DNA of 64,000 nt from Pelagibacterium halotolerans B2. Its GTDB lineage: Bacteria > Pseudomonadota > Alphaproteobacteria > Rhizobiales > Devosiaceae. Within the stretch, counting starts at the first letter, position 1; every line of letters begins with the position of its first letter. The notes beneath the pieces are model-generated. The model searched no databases, was not told where the DNA came from, and was given only the letters and a program-made list of their open reading frames with translations. The translations under genes were made by a program, and so were the position numbers. The stretch is from NCBI RefSeq assembly GCF_000230555.1, contig NC_016078.1, positions 3,433,001 through 3,497,000 on the forward strand, read 5' to 3'. This document shows, piece after piece, positions 8,915 to 59,687 of the stretch.

Positions 8915-9730
8915 TTACGCCCCAGTACGTTCTGCGAAATCAACCATCTGGTTGCGCAGCTCAGAGAAGCGATCGATTGCTGGCAGCTCCCTTATCGCCT
9001 TGTCAGTTGGGCGATATCGCATGAAGCCCTCAAGTTTTACCTTATGGTCAAAATAGTTTTCGATCTGTTCATTGGAGAGCATGAAGAAGGCAAGAGCATC
9101 GTCGACGGTGAGGATCATTCCGTTACCCTGCCCAGTCAGCATGTTCGCGAAATACTGCACGCGGTACGCGTTCATACCTGCCGCGTTTTCCTTGGCGTGC
9201 TCCGAGATCAGGGTATTCCGCTCCAATCGAATGGCGTTGTATTCCTTCATGGCGGACATTGCCCGGTGAATGAAGGTCGACAGATGCGGCATCTCCTCGG
9301 CCACCCTTGAAAGTTCAAGGAAGTCAGGTGGCTCGAGCTCGTAAGCATGGGGGATCGTCTGATAAAAGTACCGCAGCTTTTGGCTGCCTTCAACGAGCGG
9401 CTTAATGTTCGTGGCATCTTCGTAGGACGCTTCCACAAGCTTCTGCATTGTATCGACCTCCGGAGCGAGGTCGTTGAGGAACTGCCGTTTATGCGAGATG
9501 AGCGTCTCCATATTCGTACTGGCGCACGTCAAAACGCGCTTCAGCGCGTCATTTACCGCTTCATCTCTGTCATGTTGATCGCGGCGGCGATAGAACCACT
9601 GTTGAATCGCGAAGGCCAACAAGCCGAACATGAAACCACCTGCAGTGCCAATCGCCGTCTGAATGATCGGCATCCAGTTGAAGCCCATTTCAGAAATGCG
9701 AACGAACTCGACAATCATGGGATCCGTCAT
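8915..9730 (-). CDS. Membrane-anchored protein of unknown function, partner of AbiTii protein
   Basis: 271 aa. One membrane helix lies near the N-terminus (about residues 19-45, PIIQTAIGTAGGFMFGLLAF) followed by a basic RRRDQHDRDE stretch and a long, mostly helical charged domain with no motif I recognise. The start codon overlaps the stop of the upstream AbiTii gene by 4 bases (ATGA), so the two are translated together and probably act together. Base composition is visibly less GC-rich than in neighbouring genes. The predicted layout (short N-terminal segment, one helix, cytoplasmic body) resembles effector subunits in some abortive-infection pairs, but no function can be assigned. The 217 bp between it and rpsA hold only the rpsA terminator. 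Confidence 0.7.
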   Translation of the reverse strand: MTDPMIVEFVRISEMGFNWMPIIQTAIGTAGGFMFGLLAFAIQQWFYRRRDQHDRDEAVNDALKRVLTCASTNMETLISHKRQFLNDLAPEVDTMQKLVEASYEDATNIKPLVEGSQKLRYFYQTIPHAYELEPPDFLELSRVAEEMPHLSTFIHRAMSAMKEYNAIRLERNTLISEHAKENAAGMNAYRVQYFANMLTGQGNGMILTVDDALAFFMLSNEQIENYFDHKVKLEGFMRYRPTDKAIRELPAIDRFSELRNQMVDFAERTGA

Positions 9731-10371
9731 GTGCCCCCAGGACGATTAGTCCTCACCCCACCATAGACTGTTTGGCGGAATATCTCTGTGACCGTTTGTT
9801 CACTCGATGAGCCTGCAGGCATCCTCTGATCGAGCGTCACATCGGCTGCCTCAGGAAGTCGCTTTTCGAGCTCTAGAGTCAACTCCAAGACACGGCTTCG
9901 AACAGTTTGCTTGATTTCTCTAACGGCAACCAACGACAGCTCGCCCGTGATGGAGTTGCAGGCCAAATCCGGGTACACCTTGCCCTGCAAAATAAGAATC
10001 AGGTTCGAAGCGTCGACGCCTATAGAGCCTTCTGTCTTGGCGGTCAGATCATCAACCGCTGCGACGCTCTCCCGCATTTGGAACTCCGTCCAGGATTCGC
10101 CAGCGTGTTTCTCAATCAGGTACGATGGAATTGGCGCATTTTCGATGCCGCTCGCCCATGGTCCCGACCAAGTCCCGCGATATTGGACACTCAGCTTCCG
10201 GTATTCCGGCACCTCCACATCCTTAGGATATCCTTCAGTCTCATACTTGACCCAATCCTCGAGTGGCTCGCTTCCAAGACGTGAGGCCAAAAAGCGGAGC
10301 CTCAGCAGTACTGAAGCAAGGTCGGCTTTCTCATTCAGGACTGCCGCTTGGATTTCGCCTAGAATGCCCAC
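9727..10371 (-). CDS. AbiTii domain-containing protein
   Basis: 214 aa from the GTG at 10371, which has AAAGGGGG just upstream; an in-frame upstream start at 10440 has no comparable site. The first about 130 residues fit the AbiTii domain: a leading helix (LGEIQAAVLNEKADL), LLRLRFLASRLGSEPLEDWV, ETEGYPKDVEVPEYRKL, then NAPIPSYLI. AbiTii domains take their name from an abortive-infection (phage resistance) system and commonly accompany a second, variable effector; here that is the overlapping membrane protein. The C-terminal 80 residues are helical without a known motif. Its composition is atypical for the genome, consistent with horizontal gain. Confidence 0.65.
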   Translation of the reverse strand: MGILGEIQAAVLNEKADLASVLLRLRFLASRLGSEPLEDWVKYETEGYPKDVEVPEYRKLSVQYRGTWSGPWASGIENAPIPSYLIEKHAGESWTEFQMRESVAAVDDLTAKTEGSIGVDASNLILILQGKVYPDLACNSITGELSLVAVREIKQTVRSRVLELTLELEKRLPEAADVTLDQRMPAGSSSEQTVTEIFRQTVYGGVRTNRPGGT

Positions 10372-53058: not shown

Positions 53059-54318
53059 TCACGCAAACCGCCGCGCCGCGTCCACCGCCAGCCCCAGCCC
53101 CACGGCCCCGAACCGGTCCGATTGGGCGATCCGCGCATGGGCAAAACGCGCATCGACCAGTGCCCGCACCTGGCGCACCTGCGCGCCGCCCCCGGTCAGG
53201 ATCACCGTTTCGATCGCCGAAGCGCTCACCCCCGCTGCAGCCAGCGCATCGTCCAGCGCCGCCCCGATCTTGCCGGTCAGCCCCGCACTCGCCGCTTCGA
53301 ACTCGGCCCGATTCGTGGGGATGGCCAGCGACAGCCCCGGCTCGTCGAGCGTGATATCGACCATCGGCGTATCGGTCAGCGCGATCTTTGCCGCCTCCAC
53401 CTGCCCGGCCAGCCTGTGCCCCGAGCGGTGGGCGAGCAAATGTTTGAACCGTTCGAGCTTGTCCGGTTCTGCCGCTTCGCGCTGCAACTCGCGCATGTCG
53501 CGCAGCACCTCGGGGCGATAGAGCTGGTTGATCTTGTGCCAGGTCGCCATGTCGTGAAAATACCAGCGCGGCATCCCCCGCTTGCCGTCGCGCGTTGCGG
53601 TTCCCAGCCCCATTTCGGGCATCACCTTGAAAATGTTGAGCTGCCGGTCGAAATCGGTGCCGCCCACATGCACGCCCGTCGTGCTCAAAATGTCCTCGCG
53701 CCGGTCGGTGCTTCTGCTGCGCTCGGGCGAAAGTTTCAGCACCGAAAAATCCGAAGTGCCGCCCCCGATATCGACGACCAGCGCCAGCGCTTCGGCCTCC
53801 AGCGTGCGCTCGAAATGCAGCGCCGCCGCCACCGGCTCGAACTGAAATTCGATATGGGAAAACCCAACGCTGCGCGCCGCCGCCGCAAGCTGGTCCTGCG
53901 CCGCCCTGTCGGCGCCTTGGTCCCCGTCGACGAAATAAACCGGCCGCCCCAGAACCACCTGCTCGGGCATCGCCCCGGTGTGCGCGGTCAGCCTGTCGCG
54001 CAAATGGCTCAAAAACCGCCCGATCAACCCCTCAAACCCGATCCGCTCGCGCCCGATCTGGGTCGTCTCCTCCATCAGGGCCGTCCCCAGCACAGATTTC
54101 AGCGCCCGCATGAACCGCCCCTCGGCCCCGTCCATATATTCATGCACCGCCGACCGCCCGAAATGGGTGCTCTGATCCTCGAAACTGAAAAACAGCGCCG
54201 AAGGCAACGTCACCGCGTCCCCTTCCACCGGGATCAACACCGGCGCGCCATCGGGCCCAACGACCCCGATGGTGGAATTGGTGGTGCCGAAATCGACCCC
54301 ACAATAAAGCGATGCCAT
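53059..54318 (-). CDS. Hsp70 family protein (YegD-like)
   Basis: 419 aa. Only the actin-like ATPase half of Hsp70 is present: YCGVDFGTTNSTIGVV (phosphate 1), VLGRPVYFVDGDQ, FEPVAAALHFER, VVDIGGGTSDFSVLKL (phosphate 2) and VILTGGGAQVRQV (adenosine). No substrate-binding domain. YegD-type proteins are putative chaperones of unknown client. ATG at 54318 gives the Hsp70 start MASLYCGVDFG. Confidence 0.92.
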   Translation of the reverse strand: MASLYCGVDFGTTNSTIGVVGPDGAPVLIPVEGDAVTLPSALFFSFEDQSTHFGRSAVHEYMDGAEGRFMRALKSVLGTALMEETTQIGRERIGFEGLIGRFLSHLRDRLTAHTGAMPEQVVLGRPVYFVDGDQGADRAAQDQLAAAARSVGFSHIEFQFEPVAAALHFERTLEAEALALVVDIGGGTSDFSVLKLSPERSRSTDRREDILSTTGVHVGGTDFDRQLNIFKVMPEMGLGTATRDGKRGMPRWYFHDMATWHKINQLYRPEVLRDMRELQREAAEPDKLERFKHLLAHRSGHRLAGQVEAAKIALTDTPMVDITLDEPGLSLAIPTNRAEFEAASAGLTGKIGAALDDALAAAGVSASAIETVILTGGGAQVRQVRALVDARFAHARIAQSDRFGAVGLGLAVDAARRFA

Positions 54319-54447
54319 GGAAAAACCCGACCCAACCCACCCCGCCCGCAAACCCGCGCCGCCGAGGCAAAAACAAAAAGGGGCGCCGATCTAGCCTATC
54401 CGCCCGGCCGTGGCAACCGGCCCCCGGCGATCAAGCCTCCCCCACCG

Positions 54448-54470
54448 TCATCCCGGCTAAAAGCTGCCTT
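54448..54470. repeat. Truncated GTCATCCCGG-type repeat at island edge
   Basis: CGTCATCCCGGC, then the sequence departs from the family and changes to less GC-rich DNA that contains the ATPase/HEPN genes. Confidence 0.45.
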
Positions 54471-54549
54471 TGAGGAAATGATAGAATGCTACAGCGCCGC
54501 ATTCGGAATTCGGTAATAGGTGGCCAATCTCGATGCAGAAATTCTGCGC

Positions 54550-56829
54550 TTAAGTGCAAGCCCTCACCATTTTCTTGTAGTGATCCTTCCCGACCTCTTT
54601 AATGAAGTTGATACCCGCATCAGCCGCGCGGATAGCTTCTTCGAGCGTAAGGTCTGGCAGGGTGCCAAGCCCTTCAATAGTTCCGTGAGATTCGATTTGA
54701 ACGAGGCGTTCGAGAGCGCGAACGTCGATCTTATCTTTCACTGCCTCGTGATGGTCCATGAGTGCGCCAGCGAAGTTGGATTGTCCTGGAGAACAGAAGG
54801 TAGCAAACATCTCTAGGAGCTTGCGGGTTGCGTTCGGAAGTAGGAAAACGTATTCGGTTGCCTTATCTTGCGCCGCCTTCTGCACCATCATGAAAAGGTA
54901 GTGATACTCACTGTCATATTTCACCAGCAGCTCGTGCATGGGTGTGAGCGAGGTGATGCGGTCGTTCCCTTCTCCCGAGCTCCGACAATCAAGCGATAGG
55001 AGCGCCGTCACCTTTTTGGATTCATACCGTCTCTGAAAGTTTTGAAACTCACGCTTCACCATGTTCATGAAGCTTGTATTGTGGGTGAGAACGATAACCT
55101 GAGCGCACTTCTTGGTCATGCGGATCATCAAGCTGTAGGCATAGGTCCGAGCTGCGGTATCGAGGCTCGATATCGGGTCATCAATGACCAGCACCAAGTC
55201 TTCAGCTTTGCGCCCCTCAGCGGCTAGTTGGGTCAAGAAATAGCAGAAGGAAACAGCCGTACGCTCCCCTTCGCTCAGCTCTGTCGCAGGGCTGCCATTC
55301 TGTCGAAAAATTTTGTATCCGCCACTTTCTGCAACAAGACGAAGTTCTTTGTGTCCAAGGTAGGCCCAGATGAGTTCGTTCATCCTATCTGCGCCGACGC
55401 CATGATCCTGCAAATCGTTGCGAAGTGCCAACTGCCGGTCAGCAAGATATTTCTCTTCCTTTTGCGCGGCTGTCTGGTCGGTCTCAGCATCTTCGGCAGC
55501 CTTCTGTAGGCGGTTCCACTCGTTTTGGTTGGTAGCCAAGACGTGGGCTTCGATCTTCGTGAATGCGTCTTTTTGCATTGCCGCAAAGCTAGCAAAGACA
55601 TCATTGTGCTTCCGCAAGGTCGCCGCTAAGGCTGCCTCTATGGTCGCGTACTCTGTGAGCCAGTTGCCAAGGTCAAAGATTGAAAGCTCCCCCGCAACCA
55701 CGATTTCATTGGTGGGGTTTGCAACTCTCGCTTCTAAGCCTTTGAGAACTTCTCCGACGCATACACCGAGCCGCTCGATGGCCGATTCCATAGACGCCCG
55801 GCTTATGGCGAAAGCTTCACGTTCCGCTGCGATAATCTCCACTTCTTTGGGGGTGGAGCGATAGAGCTCTCTTAAATCCTGTTGGTATCCTCGTCCGTGC
55901 TTCACGGCCTCTTCCAAGGATCTCAGTGCTTCGGCCCACGACTTGTCGAACAAAACTCGGAGCTGAGCTCTGCGATCCTCCGAAAAAGGGTTGCCGCAAA
56001 GAAGGCAGTCCGACACGCTGTGCTCATCATGGTAGTGGAGCCCTTCCTCTACCCACCGAAGAGCATCCGAATGCGCTTCAAACTCGTTCAGTGCGATTGT
56101 GGAGACGCTCTGCGTGAGAAGCGACTGGCTGGCCTTGAACCAATCGGCCAGCCCTTCCGGAATGCTCGGGGAAAAGCTGAGACTTGGGAGCGGTTCACGT
56201 TGATTAAGCAGCCCCTGGTGCGTATTGAGTTTATCTTCGGACAGCTTTTGCTCCATGCCGAAGGATGCTTTCGAATAGTGCGCCTGAATCTTTCGCGCGT
56301 CGTAAGACTGTGTGTAGCTGCTTGAAGACGCCAACTCGCGGATATTGCGCGCAACTCGCGTCTTAAAGTCTGACAATGCCTTGTCAGCTTTGGTCTTCGA
56401 GTTCTCCTGAGCCTTGGTCTTATGTTTCGCGGCCGATAGCTTCGGTGCTATTTCATCATACTCCTTGCGAGCATCGACCTTCTTTTCGCTCAGGTACGCA
56501 ATCCCCTTCGTGTTACTGGCATCCCACTCGAAATTTCTGGACACGAAGTCTGTATTGAAAACCAGAAGATTATTCCCGAATGGGTTTGAAATAGGGTCAT
56601 GCGTAACAGTAGCTCCGTCTGACGTCTCGATTTTAAAAGTGGTTGCCTTTGGCAACCGGTCTTCTAAATTGCCTCGCTCTATCGAAGAAAACACCCTCGA
56701 TAAGGTAGTCTTGCCGGAACCATTGAACCCGTAGATCAAGGTGCGGGGAGCCAATTGCAGATCGCCTGAGGCGCAAAATTCTTTCCAGACTCCCGCTTGT
56801 TTCAACTCCGAAAGCCTCTGGATTATCAT
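54550..56829 (-). CDS. AAA family ATPase, RloC/PrrC-like, with zinc-hook-like CxxC
   Basis: 759 aa. ABC/SMC-type ATPase of the AAA_13 group: Walker A YGFNGSGKTTL at 33-43, signature TELSEGERTAVSF at 516-527, Walker B LVLVIDDPISSLD at 545-555 and H583 in VIVLTHNTSF. A coiled-coil middle (about 115-300 and 400-475) is interrupted by SDCLLCGNPF at 273-282, a CxxC like the zinc hook of RloC. The C-terminus (VKYDSEYHYLFMMVQKA) is typical of the group; PrrC and RloC are anticodon nucleases that answer phage infection or DNA damage, but the nuclease triad could not be assigned. Less GC-rich than neighbours. Start at the second in-frame ATG. Confidence 0.75.
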   Translation of the reverse strand: MIIQRLSELKQAGVWKEFCASGDLQLAPRTLIYGFNGSGKTTLSRVFSSIERGNLEDRLPKATTFKIETSDGATVTHDPISNPFGNNLLVFNTDFVSRNFEWDASNTKGIAYLSEKKVDARKEYDEIAPKLSAAKHKTKAQENSKTKADKALSDFKTRVARNIRELASSSSYTQSYDARKIQAHYSKASFGMEQKLSEDKLNTHQGLLNQREPLPSLSFSPSIPEGLADWFKASQSLLTQSVSTIALNEFEAHSDALRWVEEGLHYHDEHSVSDCLLCGNPFSEDRRAQLRVLFDKSWAEALRSLEEAVKHGRGYQQDLRELYRSTPKEVEIIAAEREAFAISRASMESAIERLGVCVGEVLKGLEARVANPTNEIVVAGELSIFDLGNWLTEYATIEAALAATLRKHNDVFASFAAMQKDAFTKIEAHVLATNQNEWNRLQKAAEDAETDQTAAQKEEKYLADRQLALRNDLQDHGVGADRMNELIWAYLGHKELRLVAESGGYKIFRQNGSPATELSEGERTAVSFCYFLTQLAAEGRKAEDLVLVIDDPISSLDTAARTYAYSLMIRMTKKCAQVIVLTHNTSFMNMVKREFQNFQRRYESKKVTALLSLDCRSSGEGNDRITSLTPMHELLVKYDSEYHYLFMMVQKAAQDKATEYVFLLPNATRKLLEMFATFCSPGQSNFAGALMDHHEAVKDKIDVRALERLVQIESHGTIEGLGTLPDLTLEEAIRAADAGINFIKEVGKDHYKKMVRACT

Positions 56830-56945
56830 CCCCCGTGCCCCCACGCCAGAATTACACCAGTTTTGCGTCCAGCGTACTTGTACCAATAAAGACTAGCAAC
56901 TATCGAAGGCACGCTGGGGCAATGAAAATTGCAGCGGGTCGGCGG

Positions 56946-57545
56946 CTAGGCCGGCCATTCGATTAAGGCCAAGGTCCGAAGATTTCGCCGCATTTCTTTA
57001 CGCTGCGCAAAATTCAGGCGTCGGAAAGCCCAACCAAATTCAAGAATCTCCCCGATGATGCGCGCGATCAGCTTCGTAATCTCAGGAATTCCTGACACCT
57101 CAATCGACCAACCCATCGGCTCGAAATGCGCGAATTGATTCCGGATATTCTTGTGAAAGCGGCGCAACCAATTCAGCTCGGACTCGCTGATCGCAACACC
57201 GGCAGCGTTGCTGCAATCCCCCGCCGAACGAGGTTTTCTCACGGCTGTAAGCAGGTCTGGAAGCCCCATCAAATGGGTCTTGGGCGGTTTTGCGTTCGGA
57301 TTTGTGCGGGAGTCCTCAAAATGGGCCAGCCATTCGCTCGCATTGCTCTCAGTGACAGCACCCACCGGTGCCGCAGTCGTAGTAAGATGGCATACGCACG
57401 CGCCTTGTAGCGCTGAATGCAATGCCATCACCACCCACTTCCATGCTTGGGGATCCTCGCCCACAAACTGAGCGGCGCGTATAACGTGGCGGATCGATCC
57501 CGCTACATCCTTCGTCTCATTCGTCTGAATCCAACTGTCCACCAT
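56946..57545 (-). CDS. HEPN-like protein of unknown function
   Basis: 199 aa. AWKWVVMALHSALQGACVCH near residue 35 and WLRRFHKNIRNQFAHFEPMG near residue 140. RNQFAH fits the R-x4-H motif of HEPN domains, many of which are RNases or nucleotide-modifying toxins. An ATG at 57545 with GAGGGG upstream is preferred over a TTG 14 codons earlier. It lies 116 bp upstream of the RloC/PrrC-like ATPase on the same strand and shares its less GC-rich composition, so the two probably arrived together. The assignment to HEPN is by motif only. Confidence 0.5.
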   Translation of the reverse strand: MVDSWIQTNETKDVAGSIRHVIRAAQFVGEDPQAWKWVVMALHSALQGACVCHLTTTAAPVGAVTESNASEWLAHFEDSRTNPNAKPPKTHLMGLPDLLTAVRKPRSAGDCSNAAGVAISESELNWLRRFHKNIRNQFAHFEPMGWSIEVSGIPEITKLIARIIGEILEFGWAFRRLNFAQRKEMRRNLRTLALIEWPA

Positions 57546-57709
57546 CGGCCCCTCGTCGTCGTATCGCTTGCGGTGAGCATAGACCAACCGGTGGTGATAC
57601 GAACATATGGCCGCTTTTGGCAGTCGGGCTAGCGGCGTCTAATGACCGCAATGGCGTCGCAAGCTCCCTCCACCTTGACGTCCCGCCAATCCGCCACACA
57701 TAAAGTTAC

Positions 57710-57931
57710 ATGAAAACCCCCAACCCCACAGCCCCCGCTTTCGGCGCCGGCCACGCCAGCACTTATGCCGCGGGCACGCCGCGCACGGTGCCCGGTTTCG
57801 ATGGCCTGCACGCCATGACATCCCAGCTTCTGGCCGAGCGCGTGAAAGAGGATGGGAAAATTCTCGTACTCGGGGCCGGGGGTGGGCTGGCACGCGCCCG
57901 CATTAGCGTGTCTTCAGCGGCAGACTGGTGA
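57710..57931 (+). pseudogene. Truncated class I SAM-dependent methyltransferase
   Basis: Residues 1-60 match the N-terminus of a small methyltransferase family: APAFGAGHASTYAAGTPRTV, GFDGLHAMTSQLLAERV, and SAM motif I ILVLGAGGGL. Right after motif I (57889) homology stops and the frame runs into unrelated sequence and a stop. The remaining three quarters of the enzyme are missing, so it is a broken gene, probably cut by the rearrangements that also scattered repeats over 57932-58434. Confidence 0.6.
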
Positions 57932-57976
57932 GGCCTTCCACTTAGTCAGGCTAAAGCCGCCGACAACCACTCTCTC

Positions 57977-58013
57977 CATCGCTGTCCCGGACCTGATCCG
58001 GGACCCAGCAGCC
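57977..58013. repeat. GTCATCCCGG-type intergenic repeat, copy 8
   Basis: CATCGCTGTCCCGGACCTGA, TCCGGGACCCAGCAGCC, followed by CACCGGGGCAGCGATGG (about 58063). Confidence 0.72.
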
Positions 58014-58089
58014 TTGCCGGGCCACCGGCGTTTGCGGAAGGGCACATGGGCCCCGGTTGTCACCGGGGCAGCGATGGTGGGCGGGACAG

Positions 58090-58215
58090 TCAGAGCGTGT
58101 CCAGCAAACGCATGTCCTCGACGCGATCGGGGATGGAAACGGTTTTGCGGTTCGGACACGCGACAAAACAAGGGTTTAGAGCCGAGGATTTGAGTCAATC
58201 AAATCCTGAACGGCT
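58090..58215. repeat. CGCGACAAAACA-type repeat, copy 6
   Basis: CAGAGCGTGTCCAGCAAACG, ATGGAAACGGTTTTGCGGTT, CGGACACGCGACAAAACAAG, then GAGGATTTGAGTCAATCAAA and a hairpin ending CGGCTCTGAG. Longest copy of the family. Confidence 0.72.
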
Positions 58216-58338
58216 CTGAGTGCGGCAAGGACACGGTTCGTCCGGCTGACCCGTCAATCCGTCGCACTTGCCCTCCTCAACAGAAATGATACTCCCGCAC
58301 CGCTTGCAAAACCTGCACTGCAGGGCACCTAACCCCAC

Positions 58339-58369
58339 CGTCATCCTCGGGCTCGACCCGGGGATCCGC
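58339..58369. repeat. GTCATCCCGG-type intergenic repeat, copy 9
   Basis: CGTCATCCTCGGGCTCGACC, CGGGGATCCGC. With the two repeats before it, this explains most of the 503-bp gap after the methyltransferase fragment. Confidence 0.7.
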
Positions 58370-58434
58370 CGGGCCGCCACACCCCCAACAGAGGTGATGC
58401 CCCCAGCCTCGGCGCGAACAAACCCCCTCAGCCC

Positions 58435-59535
58435 TCACGCCACCTTGCGCGCCGCCTGATCCGCCCCAAACGCCCGCCCGAACCGGTTGCCAAGGAACGC
58501 ACTAAGGTCGATCTCTTCCTGCGCCACGAACCCCTTTTGCGCCAGATCGCCCGCTGCCAGCATGTCGAGCACCGTCAGGATGCCCGCAGCCGTCGTGATC
58601 TGGATGGCCGAGCGTTCCTTGTTGCCCACAAAGCCCGAAAGCACGGTGCGCTCGAAAATCTCATGCGCCGGTTTGCCGTCCTTCATGCCCGTCACATCGA
58701 CCCGGATCACCACCATGTCTTGCTTGGTCGTGGTCAGCGCATGCCGGAAAATGTCCAGCGCCAGATCGCGCCGGTCCTTAAGGTTCAGATCGTTGAGCAG
58801 CAGCTTCATGATCCGCGCATGGCCGGGATAGCGGATGGTGCGATAGTTGAGGCTCTTGACCTTGCCCAAGAGCTTTTCGGGGGTCGAGCCCAGCCCGCCC
58901 GACGTGTTGAACGCTTCGTAAGCCACCCCGTCGATGGTCAAGTCCTCGATGTCCTCGAGCGGCGCGATTTCCGCCATCTTCCCATCGACAATCGCCTCGC
59001 ACGGCTCGCAATATTCGTTGATCACCCCCTCGGGCGACCAGGTCAGCGCGTAATTGAGCACATTGGTGGGAAACTGCGGCAGCGCCCCCACCTTCATCGC
59101 CACGCTGTCCAGCGTATCGAACTGTTTGGCCAGACTCATCGCGGCAATGGCGATGAACCCCGGCGCCAGCCCGCATTGGGGGATGAACGCGGTCTGCGCC
59201 TTGCCCGCGATCTCTTTCACCCGCCGCGTCGATTTCACATCCTCGGTCAGATCGAGATAATGGACCTTCGCCGCCGCCGCCGCTTCGGCGATCCGCGTGG
59301 TCAGCGAGTAGGGCGCCGCAGACAAAACGGCAAATTTACCCGAAAGGATTGTTTCCAGCTCCCCCGGCTCGGCCACTTCGCAGCGCGCCGTTCTCACCTT
59401 CGTGTCCGTGTCGAGCGCGGCCAGCGCTTCGGCCGATCGGTCCACCACCGTCACCGCGAAATCGCCGCTCTGGCTGGCCATGTCCGCGATGGTCGCACCG
59501 ATCCGTCCGGCGCCGATAACCACGATCTCTTTCAT
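58435..59535 (-). CDS. Saccharopine dehydrogenase family protein
   Basis: 366 aa. Rossmann start EIVVIGAGRIGATIADMASQ, SAAPYSLTTRIAEAAAAAKV, HYLDLTEDV, FIPQCGLAPGFIAIAAM and ALTWSPEGVINEYCEP match bacterial saccharopine reductase/lysine 6-dehydrogenase-like proteins. Likely amino-acid catabolism, perhaps lysine. Divergent from an Lrp/AsnC regulator that probably controls it. ATG at 59535 aligns with the Rossmann start. Confidence 0.88.
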   Translation of the reverse strand: MKEIVVIGAGRIGATIADMASQSGDFAVTVVDRSAEALAALDTDTKVRTARCEVAEPGELETILSGKFAVLSAAPYSLTTRIAEAAAAAKVHYLDLTEDVKSTRRVKEIAGKAQTAFIPQCGLAPGFIAIAAMSLAKQFDTLDSVAMKVGALPQFPTNVLNYALTWSPEGVINEYCEPCEAIVDGKMAEIAPLEDIEDLTIDGVAYEAFNTSGGLGSTPEKLLGKVKSLNYRTIRYPGHARIMKLLLNDLNLKDRRDLALDIFRHALTTTKQDMVVIRVDVTGMKDGKPAHEIFERTVLSGFVGNKERSAIQITTAAGILTVLDMLAAGDLAQKGFVAQEEIDLSAFLGNRFGRAFGADQAARKVA

Positions 59536-59687
59536 CCCAAAACCCCTCTTGGCCAAAGATCACAAATGTTGTGGCACCGAACGCTCAACTCCATAGCTTT
59601 TGGCGCCATTGTTGCCCATGATGCCACGGAGTTCCGTTGATTTGCAGGCTCCAATCAGGCACAATCGCGACTTAAAATGCGCAAATA

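Follow-up and report, generated by a model that had tools for sequence, protein, structure and literature searches.

In passages of PMC2610378, Davidov and Kaufmann recognize RloC anticodon nucleases by their ABC ATPase motifs and by a CxxC zinc hook carried on an insert that interrupts the ATPase, report sizes of 658–897 amino acids (aa), and assign to the Geobacillus protein an R692/E696/H737 triad whose mutation abolishes activity. In A. baylyi, an inducer of DNA breaks activates RloC in restriction mutants too (passages of PMC3874168), and RloC is named among the defense systems left untested in an S. thermophilus study (passage of PMC12322248). HEPN proteins, for their part, follow a rule by which a conserved Rx4-6H stands where helix 3 ends or where the loop after it begins (passages of PMC3710099). 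Here, we analyze a stretch of 64,000 nucleotides (nt) of Pelagibacterium halotolerans B2 (NC_016078.1, positions 3,433,001–3,497,000; hereafter the window), in which an RloC-type gene (54550..56829, minus strand) lies next to a small gene (56946..57545, minus strand) whose product has a predicted HEPN-like fold. We consider it likely that the two are separate cargo, namely an RloC and an independently spreading HEPN-fold protein, lodged in an exchange site that is flanked by an Hsp70-like and a methyltransferase gene.

The larger gene, whose start was revised to the ATG at 56829, encodes a protein of 759 aa, within the published size range, that combines an ABC ATPase, a zinc-hook motif, and a C-terminal anticodon-nuclease region of HEPN type. 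Pfam, PADLOC (a search of defense models), homologue names, and motifs agree on the RloC-type ATPase proposed by the initial annotation: the protein matches Pfam AAA_13 (E 2.3e-120) as well as the PADLOC models PDC-S06 (E 2.2e-137) and PrrC (E 8.2e-18), and the search returned 226 homologues at E ≤ 0.001 (scoring limited to the 7998 candidates with the most words in common), several of which, among the best 120 of 226 that were used, are named "wobble nucleotide-excising tRNase." In an alignment of 29 sequences, all 33–81% identical to the window protein except that protein itself, the full set of ABC motifs is present, as had been claimed: Walker A GFNGSGKT (residues 34–41; 56707..56730, minus strand like all motifs of this gene), with G34, N36, G37, G39, K40, and T41 invariant; the signature LSEGE (518–522; 55264..55278); Walker B VLVIDDP with the D-loop SSLD (546–557; 55159..55194); and the H-loop LTHN (H583; 55078..55089). 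The zinc-hook-type CLLC (C275 and C278; 55996..56007) falls between Walker A (34) and the signature (518), that is, between the ATPase halves. The putative nuclease triad is made up of RKLLE (R669 and E673; 54811..54825), which has the pattern of R692/E696 in Geobacillus RloC, and of ESHG (H715; 54682..54693), the counterpart of H737 as given in passages of PMC2610378, with a spacing of R-x3-E-x41-H against R-x3-E-x40-H in Geobacillus. C275, C278, H583, R669, S714, and H715 are invariant in all 29 sequences, and position 673 holds E in 26 of them and D in the other three. By all sequence criteria tested, the ATPase is therefore an RloC-type anticodon nuclease, and its divergence from the Stappia copy (nonsynonymous, dN, 0.10; synonymous, dS, 1.10) indicates that the gene is under purifying selection. 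No relative was found in the viral contig collection, and among PHROGs the protein matches phrog_2801 (function unknown; E 7e-44). No HSDR_N protein was matched in the window's genome by a search whose control was positive in 9 of 14 genomes. As a side observation, the RloC of Arsenicitalea aurantiaca (L103, 6311–8596; about 31–32% identical) is broken by one in-frame stop and is perhaps a decayed gene.

The small gene starts at the ATG at 57545 and encodes 199 aa. The initial annotation had pointed to a small same-strand gene with RNQFAH preceding the ATPase and had called its product HEPN-like; the first statement holds, and the second agrees with the predicted fold. The RNQFAH (57126..57143, minus strand) is an Rx4H motif whose R135 and H140 are invariant in 14/14 aligned homologues, down to about 28–30% identity, as a catalytic site would show. 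In the AlphaFold2 model, R135 lies inside helix 121–139 and H140 right after it, so that the motif sits where the HEPN rule places it, within a helical bundle of HEPN type, and HEPN and Csm6 structures are among rows 1–13 of the VIA-align matches. On the strength of this model, we predict a HEPN-like protein with its Rx4H at a helix end, and it is probably a metal-independent ribonuclease (RNase) with R135 and H140 in the active site. By sequence, its family is harder to place: 455 homologues were detected, and AbiV, AbiU2, and ApeA are all represented in the automatic names of those listed (the best 120 of 455), when no model in the defense and protein-family libraries searched, including those of AbiV/AbiU2/ApeA-type HEPN families, gave a match. 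The PDB returned 0 hits by sequence, both for the single sequence and for the profile, and the PHROGs match is weak (E 0.19). Among database entries, P0094 is a 139-aa version whose start was probably called too late, since its homologues are about 199 aa long.

What sets the two genes apart is their distribution. No RloC match was found at any of the 23 small-gene loci (one-genome-per-species collection; tblastn at E ≤ 1e-5; fetched DNA), and no small gene at the 10 long-match RloC loci (L088, L095–L103), several of these 23 loci and some of the RloC loci (L088, L097, L100) being ended by contig ends or short flanks. One of the 10, L095, probably from Stappia, encodes an RloC 81% identical to that of the window. 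A whole-genome search at E ≤ 1e-15, which took in the genomes of 22 small-gene loci, all but L054, another piece of the L042 strain, found an RloC in 1/22 genomes, that of Arsenicitalea, at 32% identity and on another contig. In an even sample of 289 genomes of the class, 5 contain the small gene and 21 an ATPase match; of these 21, four, the window's genome included, are matched over most of the protein, and the remainder over short ATPase stretches that may belong to other families. Both occur together only in the window's genome. At lower ranks, 2 of the 136 genomes from the family carry the small gene, and 1 of the 13 from the genus carries RloC. The claim of the initial annotation that the two genes form one RNase module is thus not supported, their adjacency being absent from all other readable loci, which is the refuting test that the annotation had set for itself.

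The small gene also appears to travel alone. Its divergence from the Mycoplana copy (dS 0.26, dN 0.09) suggests a recent transfer between families, and its neighbors vary from one locus to another. In both of the viral contigs found to carry it, it adjoins phage structural genes: it lies near capsid and tail-tube genes in one (L104, 457–1056) and near baseplate, tail, and tail-fiber genes in the other (L105, 4644–5252), these genes being on the opposite strand in each case, like added cargo. It was further found on a conjugative Sphingobium plasmid, behind a gene annotated as an HNH endonuclease. Besides the small gene and its antisense shadow, the clusters common to at least three small-gene loci consist of the HNH-type gene, members of large families (ABC transporter, dehydrogenase), and the DNA of the near-identical L044, L051, and L052, and no other regular neighbor was found among them.

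The site that holds the two genes varies between related genomes, as the initial annotation had suspected. In congeners, this site has nothing homologous to the cargo segment 54458..57641: on the left, homology to G318 runs out at 54457 within a CCGTCATCCCGG repeat, in keeping with the truncated repeat proposed for this flank, and flank homology is back near 57642. Both flanks are kept in four congeners (G318, G319, G321, and G322). On the left lies the Hsp70-like gene (53059..54318, minus strand; Pfam HSP70, E 9.3e-24), conserved in these four; on the right, the methyltransferase that had been described as broken is indeed a remnant (57710..57890, plus strand) of a class I gene that is intact and 225 aa long in the same congeners (Pfam Methyltransf_25 on the G318 copy), its homology being lost after 57888–57890, where repeat-rich DNA follows. 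Farther right, a saccharopine-dehydrogenase-like gene (58435..59556, minus strand; Pfam Sacchrp_dh_C, E 3.7e-24) is conserved in congeners. What lies between the Hsp70-like and methyltransferase homologies differs: about 343 base pairs (bp) in G319 and G322; a protoglobin-chemoreceptor gene and a 300-aa open reading frame (ORF) without Pfam match in G318; and two ORFs of 303 and 229 aa, both without Pfam match, in G321. The stretches with this other cargo are L076 3219–6089 and L077 3764–5375. G311, G320, and G317 lack the whole segment of Hsp70-like gene, cargo, and methyltransferase, and the genes beyond it on either side are 46–73 bp apart. The interval looks like a small cargo-exchange site. 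By eye, the 300-aa ORF is GIY-YIG-like and the 303- and 229-aa pair RNase/LOTUS-like, labels that come without Pfam support. We rejected the idea that the cargo edge carries an attachment motif recurring across the genome, since the 20-mer shared with G318 and G321 is found once in the window's genome. Rfam gave no match at 54000–59000.

By analogy with the RloCs studied so far, the RloC of the window would stay inactive until the ATPase head reacts to DNA that is broken or linear, as after phage attack or DNA damage; once activated, it would cut tRNA at the anticodon, so that translation would stop and the infection be aborted. The small HEPN-fold protein would be a separate agent that spreads alone among alphaproteobacteria, with prophage-like contigs and plasmids among its carriers, and both genes would have arrived as cargo in the exchange site.

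Among the alternatives, it is conceivable, but in our view improbable, that the small protein has the HEPN fold without being an RNase, and instead binds RNA or a nucleotide or plays the part of a regulator or antitoxin, with an HNH-type neighbor as one conceivable partner. At L107 (5021–6621), the small gene stands directly behind a 319-aa gene annotated as an HNH endonuclease, with overlapping ends; the HNH-annotated protein is identical in L044, L051, and L052 and 65% identical in L050, so that the same arrangement is seen in four records with identical proteins and at one more diverged locus, and the two genes possibly form a separate two-gene unit. In addition, some HEPN domains are non-catalytic (passages of PMC3710099), and one homologue of the small protein, among the matches listed, is named an antitoxin. 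However, R135 and H140 are retained without exception down to 28% identity, as a catalytic site would require; searches of the other small-gene loci did not find the HNH-type gene, and the 319-aa protein itself has no Pfam match.

It is likewise unlikely, though worth weighing, that the small HEPN protein is the cognate partner of RloC, as a silencer, second RNase, or accessory subunit in a joint anti-phage action. The two genes share one strand, lie 116 nt apart in a single cargo segment, and have a similarly low guanine-cytosine (GC) content, and HEPN–HEPN operons have a precedent in Bxe_C0808 with AbiU2 (passages of PMC3710099). Moreover, one observation weighs against separate cargo: the nearest homologue of the small protein (84%) and the nearest non-self homologue of RloC (90%), P0001 and P0122, are on contigs of the same source that are both 4289 long. 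One chance match in size across all listed pairs would be unsurprising, but this one carries weight because each protein is the best non-self match of its own list, and the equal size and common source indicate that a second, diverged RloC–small gene pair probably exists, which keeps the possibility of a module alive. Against it stand the absence of RloC from all 23 small-gene loci, with the only RloC in their genomes not adjacent, the absence of the small gene from all 10 RloC loci, even the one 81% identical, and the fact that the studied RloCs come with a switch of their own and do not depend on a restriction partner (passages of PMC3874168). A scan for promoters and terminators at the locus gave 2 and 4 sites, when 1.9 and 4.2 were expected in shuffles, and an RloC–HEPN pair was not found described in the literature on RloC, PrrC, and PDC-S06 at the level of titles, abstract openings, and passages. 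We give little credence to a bolder version, in which RloC and the HEPN family would be a rare, recently assembled dual-RNase defense unit kept in at least two diverged lineages, the upstream HEPN protein either silencing RloC or acting as a second RNase that remains effective once the phage has repaired or replaced the cleaved tRNA. Finally, PrrC proper is ruled out by the size of 759 aa, the zinc hook, and a genome without HSDR_N match, and a housekeeping SMC/Rad50/RecN protein, a classification that would have refuted the initial annotation, by an SMC_N score below the Pfam cut-off and the presence of RloC in a single one of 13 congeneric genomes.

With regard to base composition, the less GC-rich character attributed to the locus is borne out, RloC and the small gene having GC contents of 0.52 and 0.552 and the window as a whole one of 0.622; as evidence for an island, however, composition alone is weak because equally low values occur in other 1-kb stretches of it (0.526 at 9001–10000). 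Separately, a 126-bp repeat at 58092–58217, without Rfam match, has 40 scored copies of at least 83 bp, out of 139 candidates, in the 3.95-Mb host genome; 34 of the 40 are on one strand, chromosome-wide, a bias that may reflect scoring order.

In this exchange site, the locus brings together a known kind of anticodon nuclease and a probable HEPN protein of an unmodelled family, two family calls that we regard as right or likely. The RloC, from an alphaproteobacterium in whose genome no type I restriction enzyme was detected, suits tests of a restriction-independent RloC switch. The small-protein family, which has 455 detected homologues, occurs next to phage structural genes and on plasmids, and is matched by no model of the libraries searched, is a candidate for a solitary phage-exclusion RNase, and the Hsp70-like/methyltransferase site is worth mining for further defense genes.

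Overall, the closest known relatives of the ATPase are the RloCs of Geobacillus kaustophilus and Acinetobacter baylyi and the PADLOC candidate PDC-S06, with which it shares the ABC motifs, the CxxC, the R-x3-E-x40/41-H triad, the size, and the lack of visible linkage to restriction genes; it differs from them in adjoining a HEPN-like gene. PrrC has ATPase and anticodon-nuclease motifs in common with it, but with 341–416 aa is about half as large, the window protein also carrying the CxxC, and is linked to a type Ic restriction-modification locus (passages of PMC2610378), whereas a type I restriction enzyme is undetected in the window's genome. As for the small protein, its best structural matches are HepT-type HEPN toxins and the HEPN domains of Csm6, which share the Rx4H at a helix end; it differs from them by lacking a sequence-model match and by an extra C-terminal helix (179–193), and no MNT antitoxin was found beside it, the adjacent genes in the window being RloC and the methyltransferase remnant.
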